NCBI GenBank assembly: GCA_016865015.1
Contig: CP018226.1
Location: 3,565,001 to 3,629,000, forward strand
Direction: 5' to 3'
DNA length: 64,000 bases
Origin: Rhizobiales bacterium IMCC20636
Lineage (GTDB): Bacteria; Pseudomonadota; Alphaproteobacteria; Rhizobiales; GCA-2746425
Part shown: positions 21,161 to 62,518 of the stretch, piece by piece
Numbering within the stretch: the first letter of the stretch is position 1
Layout: every line of letters starts with the position of its first letter
Position numbers and translations under genes: made by a program
Notes under the pieces: generated by a model
What the model was told of the DNA's origin: nothing
The model's input: only the letters and a program-made list of their open reading frames with translations
Database searches by the model: none

Positions 21161-21645
21161 AGCGTCTCCTGTAAATTGCAGGCAGAAGGTTAGGCTTCCC
21201 CCATAGGAAAATAAATCTCAAAATCGAAACCGGCTACTGAGCTCATCGAATTTGGGCGGTACGAGCCTGTCCAACGCAATTGCCCGGACCGCCGTAACGC
21301 GAACCTTCGCATCCAAACCACGGTTTGACATGATCGAGCCGCGCAGTATTTTGGAATACTGAGACTGATTTCCGGTAATTTTTCAAACACAGCTTCGTCA
21401 CACTCACACACAGGGTTGTGAGGTGAATGCGCATTTCTGTGAGGTCGCAAAACGCCATCGGCAGAGTTCTGCGGTTTCGCTCTGATCGCCTCACGCGTCT
21501 GTGAATGTTCAGGTTTTGCGAACGGATTGTTGCCGTTTAAATCCCGAAATCTTTTCCCTAAATCCAACTCATCGAGAGGCCAACACCACTCGCAACAAAC
21601 ACAAACAAGACGACACTCGAAAATCAACAAGAAGGAAAAACAATC
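21161..21645. other. Long leader region upstream of the small-peptide repeats
   Basis: This 485-bp stretch holds no credible gene. It contains one promoter-like sequence (21325-21352). Its last 60 bp are A-rich and end in the ribosome site AAGAAGGAAAAACAATC of the first small-peptide gene. If the promoter is real, the peptides have a 5' leader of nearly 300 nt, long enough for regulation or a small RNA. Confidence 0.4.
21325..21352 (+). promoter_or_regulatory. Possible promoter for the small-peptide cluster
   Basis: TTGACA at 21325-21330 and TATTTT at 21347-21352 are separated by 16 nt. This is the best sigma-70-like match I noticed before the peptide genes. It was found by eye, so confidence is low. 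Confidence 0.3.
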
Positions 21646-21807
21646 ATGACTTTTCGTAAAATCGCAGCTCCCGTTCTGATCCTCTCCTCAATCGTTCTGG
21701 GCGCATCCGCTGCCAATGCTGGCGTGTACAACCCGGCCAATGACAGCTCCCCCGATGCCATGACCCCAGGTTACACTGGTCTGGCCAAAGACCTGTCCGG
21801 CAAATAA
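21646..21807 (+). CDS. Small secreted peptide, tandem copy 1
   Basis: This is a 53-residue product of a gene present three times in tandem. Residues 1-25 form a clear Sec signal peptide: Lys5, then the hydrophobic core APVLILSSIVLGASA, ending in ANA. The predicted mature peptide has 28 residues (GVYNPANDSSPDAMTPGYTG followed by LAKDLSGK). It is polar, free of cysteine and rich in Asp, Ser and Pro. The ribosome site is AGAAGGA. Compared with the other copies it differs only in the signal peptide (V10, V17, S21), while the mature part is unchanged. I recognise no family. A conserved hairpin follows the gene. Confidence 0.8.
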   Translation: MTFRKIAAPVLILSSIVLGASAANAGVYNPANDSSPDAMTPGYTGLAKDLSGK

Positions 21808-21828
21808 GCCAACACACCCTCACGGGAA

Positions 21829-21877
21829 GCCGATTGTCTCAAGCTGAACCCCTCCCTGAACAGTTGAGACAACCGGC
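21829..21877 (+). terminator. Intercistronic hairpin after peptide copy 1
   Basis: GCCGATTGTCTCAA (21829-21842) pairs with TTGAGACAACCGGC (21864-21877), a 14-bp stem with one A-C mismatch and a 21-nt loop. The same structure follows copy 2. It lacks a U tract, so it may protect or process the messenger rather than end transcription. Confidence 0.6.
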
Positions 21878-21922
21878 AACCGGGACGACGAAGAACGTCA
21901 AACAAGAACAAGGAATAATAAA

Positions 21923-22084
21923 ATGACATTTAGCAAGATCGCAGCTCCAATCCTGATCCTCTCCTCCATTGCACTGGGTGCAACTGCCGCCACTGCAGGC
22001 GTTTACAACCCAGCCAATGACAGCTCACCAGATGCCATGACACCAGGTTACACTGGTCTGGCCAAAGACCTGTCCGGCAAATAA
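21923..22084 (+). CDS. Small secreted peptide, tandem copy 2
   Basis: This 53-residue copy has the signal peptide MTFSKIAAPILILSSIALGA ending in TAATA, and the same 28-residue mature peptide as copies 1 and 3. Differences from copy 3 are only Ser4 for Arg and Thr24 for Asn, both in the signal peptide. Many codons in the mature region differ silently between copies 1 and 2, so the mature sequence appears to be under purifying selection. The ribosome site AAGGAATAATAAA is shared with copy 3. The start lies 277 bp after the start of copy 1. Confidence 0.82.
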   Translation: MTFSKIAAPILILSSIALGATAATAGVYNPANDSSPDAMTPGYTGLAKDLSGK

Positions 22085-22105
22085 GCCAAACTGCTCTCAC
22101 CGGAA

Positions 22106-22152
22106 GCCGATTGTCTCAAGCTGAACCCTCCCCAACAGTTGAGATAACCGGC
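22106..22152 (+). terminator. Intercistronic hairpin after peptide copy 2
   Basis: GCCGATTGTCTCAA (22106-22119) pairs with TTGAGATAACCGGC (22139-22152). Relative to the first hairpin a C became T, turning a G-C pair into G-U. The stem is thus kept while the loop has changed length. Confidence 0.6.
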
Positions 22153-22197
22153 AACCGGGACGACGAAGAACGTCAAACAAGAACAAGGAATAATAAA

Positions 22198-22359
22198 ATG
22201 ACATTTCGCAAGATCGCAGCACCAATCCTGATCCTCTCCTCCATTGCACTGGGTGCAACTGCCGCCAATGCAGGCGTGTACAACCCGGCCAATGACAGCT
22301 CACCAGATGCCATGACCCCGGGTTACACCGGTCTGGCCAAAGATCTGTCCGGCAAATAA
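22198..22359 (+). CDS. Small secreted peptide, tandem copy 3
   Basis: This third 53-residue copy has signal peptide MTFRKIAAPILILSSIALGA ending in TAANA, followed by the invariant 28-residue mature peptide. It starts 275 bp after copy 2. The 90 bp upstream are nearly the same as upstream of copy 2, so the duplicated unit is gene plus hairpin and leader. The 3' flank is different: the paired hairpin is missing and another inverted repeat (22400-22438) follows. The function is unknown. Three copies point to high dosage of a short periplasmic or extracellular peptide. Confidence 0.82.
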   Translation: MTFRKIAAPILILSSIALGATAANAGVYNPANDSSPDAMTPGYTGLAKDLSGK

Positions 22360-22399
22360 GTCAGCCGAACAACGCAACGCTTACGCTTGTTGCGAGAAG

Positions 22400-22438
22400 G
22401 ATCCCGCTGCCTGAAACCCCTAACAGGGCGGCGGGATC
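22400..22438 (+). terminator. Possible terminator of the small-peptide cluster
   Basis: GATCCCGC (22400-22407) pairs with GCGGGATC near 22431-22438, with an inner CCTG/CAGG pairing around AAACCCCTAA. It is GC-rich but has no U tract. It lies 41 bp after the third peptide gene. The remaining 150 bp to hisG hold nothing else I can support. Confidence 0.45.
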
Positions 22439-22586
22439 TGAGCTTTACCGCTCACATCAACACCACTGACCAGATGGCCGCCAAGACCAATAACAAAATG
22501 GCTCATGGTCCGGTGAATCCATAATTCAAGAGGCGGACAAGCCGCCCTGTCAGGAGATAAAGACATGTTCTTCAGAGGAAAGACTT

Positions 22587-50959: not shown

Positions 50960-53900
50960 TTACCTCCTGGACGTTTGCGGTTCCAGATAGGAGTCGATCT
51001 GCTGCTGCGTAAGCCGTCGGGGCGCTATTCTCTCAGCAAATTGCTTCAGTACTTCTGTGTTTGGAAATATTGGCCAAAAGCCAAGCGTTCCATCCGCAGA
51101 TGCGGCAGCGAGCGCTGTCCCGTCATTCGCAAATTCCGCGGTTACCAGTTGCTTCCCTGCCAATGTAAATCGGGCAATTGTGCCACCCTCGGCAACATCA
51201 AAAATGCTGGTGCCCTGCTCAGTTACAAAGGCAATGCGTTTGCCGTCAGCGCTGAATGAAGCTGCGGATGGGCTGCGCAGGTTCGGACCAACCCGAAATG
51301 TCTGCAAGCTTTCCGGATCGAGCAAGTTGCCGATAACAAAATCGTCTGAACCCTGAACCGGTTCATCTGAAAGACTGAAGAATGAAAGGCTGCCTACCGC
51401 GACAATGGACACCATCTGCTCATCAGGGTGAAGTGCCAGAATTGTCTTTGCACCGTCAAAAGCGTCAAGCTGGGCAACTCGAGCGTTGAACATGTAGGGC
51501 CGGCCCCCTTCGGGCGTGGGCAGTATCTGCATTGAAAGCCAGTTTATGGCAAACAGCCTGTCGCCGGATCGAGAAACGGCGGTGATATTATCGCCCTTGC
51601 CATTGAACTCCATGAGATATCCAACAGAATCCGTTCCGTCGGGCGGCTCCTGCACCCCAACCCAGGCGACCAGTTTGGGGTCACCACTGAGATCATAAAG
51701 TTCGACATGGCTGGGGTTTGAAAAATAAAGTGCAGCACGCGATTGATCCTGTGCGAACGCAACCGCACCTGGAGACTTGATTGTCATGGAGGAAGCAGGA
51801 AAGCGGCGGTTACCTATCTGAAACTCAAAGGACAACAGCGAGCTGTCTGGCTCCAGAATCGCTACCGGGCGCTCTCCAGCGAATCCGGTGGCCAAGACCC
51901 TTGGATAATCCACATCCAGTTCGCGGTCTGCAACCAATTCCTGACCTTCACTGAGGTTCCAAGAACCCAGTAGCCCGCTGGAAGTTGAACGCAAAAAGCG
52001 TTCACCGCTTGGTGAGATGGAGAGCAAGATGGGCGCGCCCTCTAGAAGCAATTCCCCCTCGACCAAATTTGCGGACACCTGTGCGGTGCTGATTTTCGGA
52101 GCATCAGCAATTCGGGATGGTCCGATGCGTTTGGCAGCTATGGCCGTCTCGAGAGACCAGATGCGCACCGTGCCATCCGCAGCAGTCGAGACAATCCGGG
52201 TACTGTCAGGGCTGAACTGCGCGGAAGTGGCCCAATCCTCATGCCCACTCAGTATCAGAGCCTCTCCGCTGCCATCAGACGACCACACACGCACCGTGCC
52301 ATCTTCACCTCCAGATACAATCCGGGTACCGTCAGGGCTGAACTCAGCGGACAAGACTAAACCCTCATGCCCGCTCAGCATCAATGCCTTCCCGCTGCCG
52401 TCAGAAGGCCACACACGCACCATACCATCGTCTCCAGCAGATACGATCTGCGTACCGTCAGGGCTAAACCGTGCGGACATGACCGGACCCGTCGCTTGTT
52501 CGCTCAGTATCGTTGCCCCTCCGATGCCATCAAACACCCGCAACCGCACCGTGCCGTTTGCGTCAGCAGATACAATCTGCGTACGGTCAGGGCTAAACTG
52601 TGCGGAAAGGACCCGCTCCTTTTCGGCGTCCAGCATCAACTCCTCTCCGCTACCATCGGACATCCACACACGCACGGTGCCGTCTAAACCAACAGATACA
52701 ATCCGAGTGCCATCAAGACTAAACTTTGCAGAAAAGACCCGCCCCTCGTGGCCGCTCAGTATCAAAGCCTCTCCGCTGCCATCAGACGGCCACACACGCA
52801 CGGTGCCGTCTTCACCAGCAGACACGATGCGGGTACCGTCAGGACTAAACTGTGCGGACAAGACCCAAGCCTCATGGCCACTCAGTATAAAAGCCTCCCC
52901 GCTGCCATCTGATGGCCACACGCGCACAGTGCCATTTTCACCAGCCAATACAATCCGGGAACCGTCAGGACTAAACTGTGCAGACGAAAACTGGACATTG
53001 TCATCCCTGAACACGATCTGCTCCCTCAGGGCGTAGAGGGCCGAGTAGGTAGCTCGTTCGGCTTCCGGAACATACGGCAGTTCTGTTTGATCCTGCAGCA
53101 CTTCCAACGCCATTGCGAGACCGGAAGCGGCATCACCAGATGCAGTGGCCTCACCTGATCTTTGAGCCAGCAATTGAGAACGCAATTGCTTGTTCTCATC
53201 CTGCTCTTCGATGAGTCTGGTCAAGCTCTCTTGAGCTCTTGCGCTGGCAAGAATTGCATCTGCCGTCGCATTTTCCGCTCTCTCGCGCTCTTGTTCTGCG
53301 ATGGCGGTTTGCACCTTTGCTTCATTGAGCGCGAGCTTGAGTTCTTCAGTTTCCGCAAGCGTTGTCAGAATGAAAATTCCCAACCCAATCACACCAATGA
53401 CCAGGAAGCCAAGCAGGCTCTTGGTGAGCTTTTGTCGGCGCAGATTGTCGGCGCTGGCATTCAACAACTCGGCCACGTCCCCAAAGCGTCCGCCATAGCG
53501 CTCTGCCCAGGCTGGACTGCGCCCGACCATCCAGAATTCGCGTTCTGTTGTCACAGCTGGCGACAGAACGGCTGACTTGTCTTCAGCATATCCATCGGCG
53601 GCGACAAGTAATGTCTTCCAGATCAGGCCGTCCTTGAATTCCTCCTGCAACCAACCAATTTTCGGGTCGGCTATCTGTTTCCAGCAGCGGATCAAAGCTT
53701 CATGGCTGATGCTGATCTCATCACTAGGACTCAATGGTGCCGCGCCATAGGGCCGCAAGAATGAAACGCCATCCTCACGAAGGGGAGCCAGCATTTGTGC
53801 CAATCTTTCAGGCTCGATATCGGATTTGTCACTCAGTTCCTGAAGGGTCTGGCGTTGGCGAATGGCGTTTCCATCCGCGTCAATTTCAGTCAATGCACGA

Positions 53901-62116: not shown

Positions 62117-62518
62117 ATGTCTGCGATACCCGGAAACAGTTTTGATACATCCCTCGCCCCGACGGTTGCCAAGAGCGCCTCGATGGTGAATGCCGCAGTG
62201 CTTTCCATCGTGAAGCGCGCCTCCGCCGCGTTGAATTTCTGGTCCTATCGCCGCACAATGACACAGCTTGTGACGCTTGATGACCATATGCTGAAAGACA
62301 TTGGCGTAACCCGTGGCGATATCCGGAAATCCTCCGCCCTGCCCTATTCGGATGATCCGACCACACAGCTTCGAATTTTGGCGATGGAGCGGAGTGCTTC
62401 TGATCTGGTGTGGACAAAAAATGCGGAAGAGCGTCGGAGGCTGCAAGTGCAGCGCCCCAGAGCTTCAGGCTGTGAACCCTACAGATCCAGTGATCAGCGT
62501 GACGTAAAACTTCGCTGA
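62117..62518 (+). CDS. DUF1127-domain protein with long C-terminal tail
   Basis: This 133-residue protein contains the DUF1127 motif YRRTMTQLVTLDDHMLKDIG followed by VTRGDIRKSSAL (about 55-85). Such domains are usually small, arginine-rich and about 45-75 residues long. Here there are about 50 residues on each side, the C-terminal ones basic (AEERRRLQVQRPRASGCEPY). Some DUF1127 proteins bind RNA or influence phosphate and carbon metabolism in rhizobia. The ATG at 62117 has AGGAG 7 nt upstream. It is divergent from the LysR regulator and ends before a strong terminator. Confidence 0.88.
   Translation: MSAIPGNSFDTSLAPTVAKSASMVNAAVLSIVKRASAALNFWSYRRTMTQLVTLDDHMLKDIGVTRGDIRKSSALPYSDDPTTQLRILAMERSASDLVWTKNAEERRRLQVQRPRASGCEPYRSSDQRDVKLR

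Follow-up and report, generated by a model that had tools for sequence, protein, structure and literature searches.

A window of 64,000 nucleotides from Rhizobiales bacterium IMCC20636, the whole stretch of DNA analysed here, contains three short genes that follow one another on the plus strand and encode the same small peptide. The array raises the question of what it supplies to the cell, and whether the peptide is its only product. The genes, which were defined by ORF calls, genome copies and codon comparison, and the cassette that encloses them, which was delimited by blastn, are as follows:

21646..21807, plus strand: peptide gene copy 1, 53 aa, with a mature part of 28 aa
21923..22084, plus strand: peptide gene copy 2, 53 aa
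22198..22359, plus strand: peptide gene copy 3, 53 aa
21365..22516, plus strand: entire dispersed cassette, consisting of an upstream region, three ORF-hairpin units and a terminal hairpin

The start-to-start distances of the three ORFs are 277 and 275 bp. In each copy the mature part reads GVYNPANDSSPDAMTPGYTGLAKDLSGK, which includes three Asp and two Lys residues and lacks Cys, and is preceded by a predicted Sec-type signal sequence whose last three residues are A-N-A or A-T-A. The signal parts differ by a few residue changes, and the codon differences between the copies are silent. An earlier note on this DNA had described three 53-aa ORFs with an identical 28-aa mature part and silent codon differences; their positions and identity are confirmed here, as is the absence of cysteine from the mature sequence. 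The AlphaFold model of the 53-mer consists of the signal helix and coil only, with a mean pLDDT of 65, and no fold was predicted for the mature part.

A different tandem array is found at 52164-52981 of the window, with a 126-bp unit in 6.5 copies and 75% matches. These are probably repeats within a coding region, WD40-like by eye.

Copies, selection and distribution of the peptide

The genome to which the window belongs, a single contig of 4.79 Mb, carries ten full copies of the peptide gene at four dispersed loci:

window locus: three peptide-gene copies
near 257.1-257.5 kb: two peptide-gene copies
near 263.4-263.9 kb: two peptide-gene copies
near 1413.0-1413.7 kb: three peptide-gene copies

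A comparison of all pairs of the ten copies gave 210 synonymous and 0 nonsynonymous codon differences in the mature region, against 247 synonymous and 97 nonsynonymous differences in the signal region, so the ORF pattern is not due to chance. The purifying selection that the earlier note had proposed from the window copies is extreme in the mature part. Between species, the mature part has a pN/pS of 0.09-0.13 when the closer genomes are compared, and the changes there are confined to few sites: the first residue is G or N, and Y to F and K to L changes occur in G003. Versus the most distant genome, the ratio is 0.024 for the mature part and 0.63 for the signal part. Random nonsynonymous drift in the mature part of relatives, which the earlier note had set against its own reading, was tested and is absent, with pN/pS values from 0.024 to 0.13.

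Family-level comparisons were made with five genomes of one bacterial family, namely the window genome (G000) and G001 to G004. Peptide arrays are present in all five, often at matching positions, and the homologues that the earlier note had suggested looking for are thereby found. The contigs of the G001 draft assembly (L046, L047, L048, L049) end within or next to array copies; because the arrays break the assembly in this way, copy numbers in draft genomes are underestimates. Beyond the family, 398 genomes from the order and 385 from the class were searched with profiles and returned no credible relative of the peptide, and none was found among viral contigs, phages and plasmids. Searches of Pfam, NCBIfam, PHROGs and the PDB gave no profile match above cut-off, and the exact peptide strings found no mention in the literature searched.

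Several candidates from these searches were rejected. The 53-aa query matched sequences in other families of the order at E 0.006-1, none of which combines a signal sequence with the motif where the locus was read, and the profile matches in the order and class likewise lack both at the loci read out; these rejections rest mainly on the poor E-values, as a few of the loci had been read in a frame other than that of the match. The matches to PHROG 11263, with a best E of 0.011, and to Pfam DPC1, with an E of 0.028, fall short of significance, and the PDB motif matches, to Phi92 gp126 and a peroxiredoxin, are short chance matches. The earlier note had seen no resemblance to known families, and the family, phage, plasmid and structure searches bear this out. 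As far as the data show, the peptide appears to be an orphan family restricted to one lineage within the genomes examined, and neither the peptide nor its combination with hairpins seems to match anything described in the resources searched. Strict selection, together with the retention of about ten copies in the lineage, implies that the organism probably depends on the peptide.

The core of the peptide recurs in a second predicted secreted protein of 139-140 aa, whose genes lie at:

G000 C1, about 4743962-4744384 (L045:6963-7385): gene for the three-motif protein
L050:9987-10406 and L053:7920-8339: three-motif protein gene in other genomes

This protein contains three diverged copies of the core separated by flexible linkers, with two Cys in the middle motif. 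It is conserved, the changes being mostly silent, and in G002 and G003 its gene lies between groEL and hisG, in the interval that also holds the window array. The repetition of the core with flexible linkers in a second protein suggests that the core is a recognition module; that a partner recognises it is a guess from the conservation pattern. In G004, the ORF at L056:7142-7474, directly after an array copy, keeps the array signal sequence but continues into a mature part of unrelated sequence, which looks like reuse of signal sequences.

Synteny, concerted evolution and expression signals

Three loci of the genome have syntenic counterparts in other species:

window locus: between the groEL and hisG regions
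second syntenic locus: adjoining an amidase gene and a LysR gene
third syntenic locus: adjoining an aspartate-type aminotransferase gene

In a tree computed from the first copy of each array plus 225 nt of upstream DNA in four genomes, the rows group by genome (3 changes, the minimum possible) and not by locus (7 changes), with some weak branches (49/90 for the G000 group). Within one genome, copies from different loci share 90-96% identity over ~0.6-1.15 kb, including noncoding upstream DNA, and syntenic copies in the nearer species are ~84% identical. In the window genome, the cassette at 21365-22516 and the 1413-kb locus show 92% homology that ends at unrelated flanks (blastn). Because the copies cluster by genome despite occupying syntenic loci, we infer from the pattern over four genomes that they evolve in concert. 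Gene conversion is the simplest cause of this homogenisation, and repeated duplication at the same sites may be an alternative one.

The neighbouring genes vary by locus and include those for an aldo/keto reductase, HisG, an alanine symporter, an amidase, LysR, an aminotransferase, an FMN reductase and a TRAP transporter. Since the neighbours are unrelated between loci, each array looks autonomous. No modification enzyme, peptidase, dedicated exporter or dedicated receptor is adjacent to the loci examined.

Codon adaptation (CAI) was computed against the ribosomal and elongation-factor genes of the window genome. All ten peptide genes have values of 0.78-0.82, near those of groEL (0.845) and the EF-G/EF-Tu genes; the other genes in the window that encode at least 150 aa reach at most 0.741, and the three-motif gene has 0.705. 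The adaptation of the mature part alone is only mildly above random. The high-dose product put forward by the earlier note is supported by these values and by the layout of ten copies at multiple loci.

Two elements precede the first ORF of the window array:

21499..21530, plus strand: putative operator/promoter box CTGTGAATGTTC-N8-CGAACGNATTGT, once per array, recognised by conservation upstream of arrays
21573..21592, plus strand: small 5' leader hairpin (CGAG.GG-loop-CC.CTCG), predicted in most arrays

When as many as three mismatches are allowed, the box occurs exactly four times in the genome, one occurrence per array, and a control pattern gave 0 matches. In the window genome it precedes the first ORF and is absent from the gaps between ORFs; one box per array and none between the ORFs suggests that each array gives rise to one polycistronic transcript. 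The leader hairpin is weak on its own (z -1.5), and its stem is replaced in G004 C119. No intrinsic terminator was found at the array. The conserved upstream region at 21365-21500 also contains several GTGAG/TCAC motifs that resemble repeated regulator sites.

Hairpins between and after the peptide genes

The DNA between the ORFs and after the last of them is predicted to fold, when transcribed, into the following structures:

21819..21886, plus strand: inter-ORF hairpin 1, loop AACCCCUCCCUGAA (CCCCUCCC at 21849); z -3.5, covarying stem, loop motif
22097..22161, plus strand: inter-ORF hairpin 2, loop AACCCUCCCCAA; z -4.6, covarying stem, loop motif
22399..22440, plus strand: terminal hairpin, downstream of peptide gene copy 3, with CCCCUAA in its C-rich loop, U-tract absent; z -5.4, compensatory changes

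A single strong hairpin is predicted in each inter-ORF gap, with z from -2.5 to -6.7, and the terminal hairpin reaches z -5.4 in the window and -8.2 at the 1413-kb locus. When 12 inter-ORF hairpins, drawn from four genomes, were aligned, 97.4% of the cells of the stem were paired and 5 pairs had changed on both sides. The covariation score was reached by none of 500 shuffles, and the signal is lost when the partner is shifted by one to three columns. The terminal stem shows compensatory changes at four pairs. Because copies are homogenised within genomes, the independent covariation events are few, corresponding to roughly three to four lineages. In the fifth genome (G004), the hairpin and its loop motif are kept on a stem whose sequence is unlike the others.

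The loops share a C-rich motif. CCUCC or CCCUC (the CUCCUCCC/CCCCUCCC motif) occurs in 17 of the 18 inter-ORF loops, as opposed to 2.4% of dinucleotide shuffles folded alike; the motif is lost in one hairpin, at the asp locus of G002. The loops of G001-G003 carry CUCCUCCC or UCCUCCC, and those of the window genome carry CCCCUCCC or CCCUCCCC, not the canonical CCUCCUCCC, of which no exact instance was found in the window. One inter-ORF hairpin of G003 (L055:7770-7850) has its loop segment CUCUCCUCCCAAAG tandemly duplicated, and the motif is present there twice. Under a looser criterion, 25 hairpins were found outside the arrays in 529 kb of the window genome, mostly weaker and with unlike loops. 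Rfam returned no relevant match for the hairpins even at E up to 10; its DUF2815 RNA (E 0.85) and nhaA-I (E 6) hits fall far under their cut-offs. The earlier note was right about selection and a high dose, and it overlooked the hairpins, the dispersed loci and the concerted evolution. The roles it had put forward for the peptide, in signalling, in a matrix or in metal handling, are candidates that these analyses do not tell apart.

Candidate functions and comparison with known systems

The best reading, to which we give about an even chance, is that polycistronic arrays yield both a high-dose, predicted-exported peptide and mRNA-derived, sRNA-like hairpins. The transcript of an array would be built as a leader followed by a peptide ORF and hairpin repeated two or three times, read from one conserved upstream region. 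Its first product would be an abundant, Sec-exported, Cys-free peptide of 28 aa, the ~20-residue core of which (VYNPxNDxSPDAMTPGxTGLA) may act as a recognition module outside the cytoplasm. Its second would be stable hairpins whose C-rich loop (CUCCUCCC/CCCCUCCC) could pair with Shine-Dalgarno sequences: the transcript may be processed into sRNA-like regulators that work as NfeR1 or CcsR do, and the hairpins, whether processed or not, could occupy Shine-Dalgarno sequences. The dose would come from several genes in tandem at each of three or four loci, with gene conversion or repeated duplication keeping the copies alike. From sequence we infer that the array is transcribed as one polycistronic unit and processed, that its hairpins pair with ribosome-binding sites, and that the peptide is exported and recognised by a partner.

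More tentatively, the arrays could represent a new type of bifunctional locus in which secreted-peptide ORFs alternate with anti-Shine-Dalgarno hairpins on one transcript, at several sites that evolve in concert, so that one regulatory event would release an extracellular peptide together with intracellular translational repressors.

That the arrays exist for a high-dose exported peptide alone, with the hairpins serving to separate and protect cistrons as 3' stabilisers or processing sites and having no regulatory effect on other genes, is a serious possibility, which we consider somewhat doubtful. It accounts for the extreme conservation of the mature part, the dose and the codon bias, and strong hairpins free of a U-tract after each ORF are well suited to 3' protection. 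A stabiliser, however, needs no particular loop, and here the C-rich motif is kept in 17 of 18 cases while stems are replaced. A conserved loop on replaced stems argues for a loop function beyond 3' protection, and for this reason the dual reading is ranked above the peptide-only one, though not by much. Small, secreted, tandem multi-copy precursor genes, and a companion gene with three core motifs on flexible linkers, also recall precursor peptides that are cleaved and modified before release as a natural product, be it a RiPP, a bacteriocin or a pheromone. This we judge improbable, because a modification enzyme, a peptidase and a dedicated exporter are absent beside the loci examined, the peptide has no Cys, and no known family is matched; moreover, the product is near-identical between species, unlike strain-specific pheromones or bacteriocins.

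Two further explanations take the repeats themselves as the point of departure, and both appear very improbable. In the type I toxin-antitoxin loci Ldr and Ibs of E. coli, long repeats occur both in tandem and at dispersed sites and each of them codes for a small peptide; the tandem and dispersed small-ORF copies with structured RNA seen here have a similar architecture. The arrays differ from them in having a cleavable signal and a hydrophilic, strictly conserved mature part in place of a hydrophobic membrane peptide; no promoter-like site was found on the opposite strand of the array, and there is no sign of an antisense RNA. A selfish or neutral cassette that spreads, is homogenised by recombination and has no role in the cell would fit the sharp-edged units and the 95-96% identity that some of the genome's loci share. 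It is at odds with the synteny of the loci across species, with codons biased like those of highly expressed genes and with the lack of a transposase in the unit, and selection on the mature part, whose pN/pS is near zero, already refutes it for the most part.

Among systems already described, rRNA operons are an example of multi-copy, high-dose genes at several syntenic loci that are kept alike by recombination. The arrays share this within-genome homogenisation of syntenic loci and differ in their product, which would be a small exported peptide plus hairpin RNA. If both halves work, they would offer a clean model for the coupling of an exported peptide to RNA control in a bacterium, and also a model of concerted evolution in protein genes across dispersed loci.

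For the hairpins, the closest parallel is with the alpha-r14 sRNAs, including NfeR1, whose defining hairpins vary in the stem and hold CCUCCUCCC constant in the loop (PMC10746234); the SmelA075 and SmelA099 models are related to them (PMC3927594). The alpha-r14/NfeR1/cuckoo RNAs resemble the arrays in setting a constant C-rich anti-Shine-Dalgarno loop on stems that vary greatly, in a genome of the Hyphomicrobiales type (PMC10746234, PMC3927594), and the feature that stems vary while structure and loop are kept is found in the arrays too. Cuckoo/alpha-r14, however, comprises several adjacent hairpins in a noncoding RNA with a loop of exactly CCUCCUCCC, whereas the arrays place one hairpin after each protein-coding ORF and have CUCCUCCC or CCCCUCCC loops.

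The second parallel is CcsR1-4 of Rhodobacter, sRNAs that derive from a 3' UTR and share a transcript with the DUF1127 gene ccaF1; such a pairing of DUF1127 gene and sRNA is frequent in alphaproteobacteria (PMC10253847, PMC8625941). The window itself contains a DUF1127-domain protein gene (62237-62326; Pfam PF06568), one of three in the genome, with no CCUCCUCCC hairpin just downstream, and none was found near any of the three. The ccaF1-CcsR1-4 locus of Rhodobacter sphaeroides (CIN1 type) resembles the arrays in joining a small protein gene to several related 3'-UTR-type hairpin RNAs (PMC10253847, PMC8625941). Its protein is a DUF1127 RNA-binding protein, whereas that of the arrays is a signal-bearing peptide with no Pfam match above cut-off; and unlike in the CcsR/CIN1 case, ORF and hairpin alternate in the arrays and several dispersed loci evolve in concert. 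The CcsR/CIN1 type is also marked by an RpoH-dependent promoter and by RNase E processing of a common precursor; on this point the arrays show the conserved upstream box. We therefore claim no membership in these families and suggest by analogy that the arrays work like sRNA loci with anti-Shine-Dalgarno loops. Their interleaved hairpins would then extend the anti-Shine-Dalgarno sRNAs of the NfeR1/CcsR type from noncoding and DUF1127-linked loci to loci for a secreted peptide.
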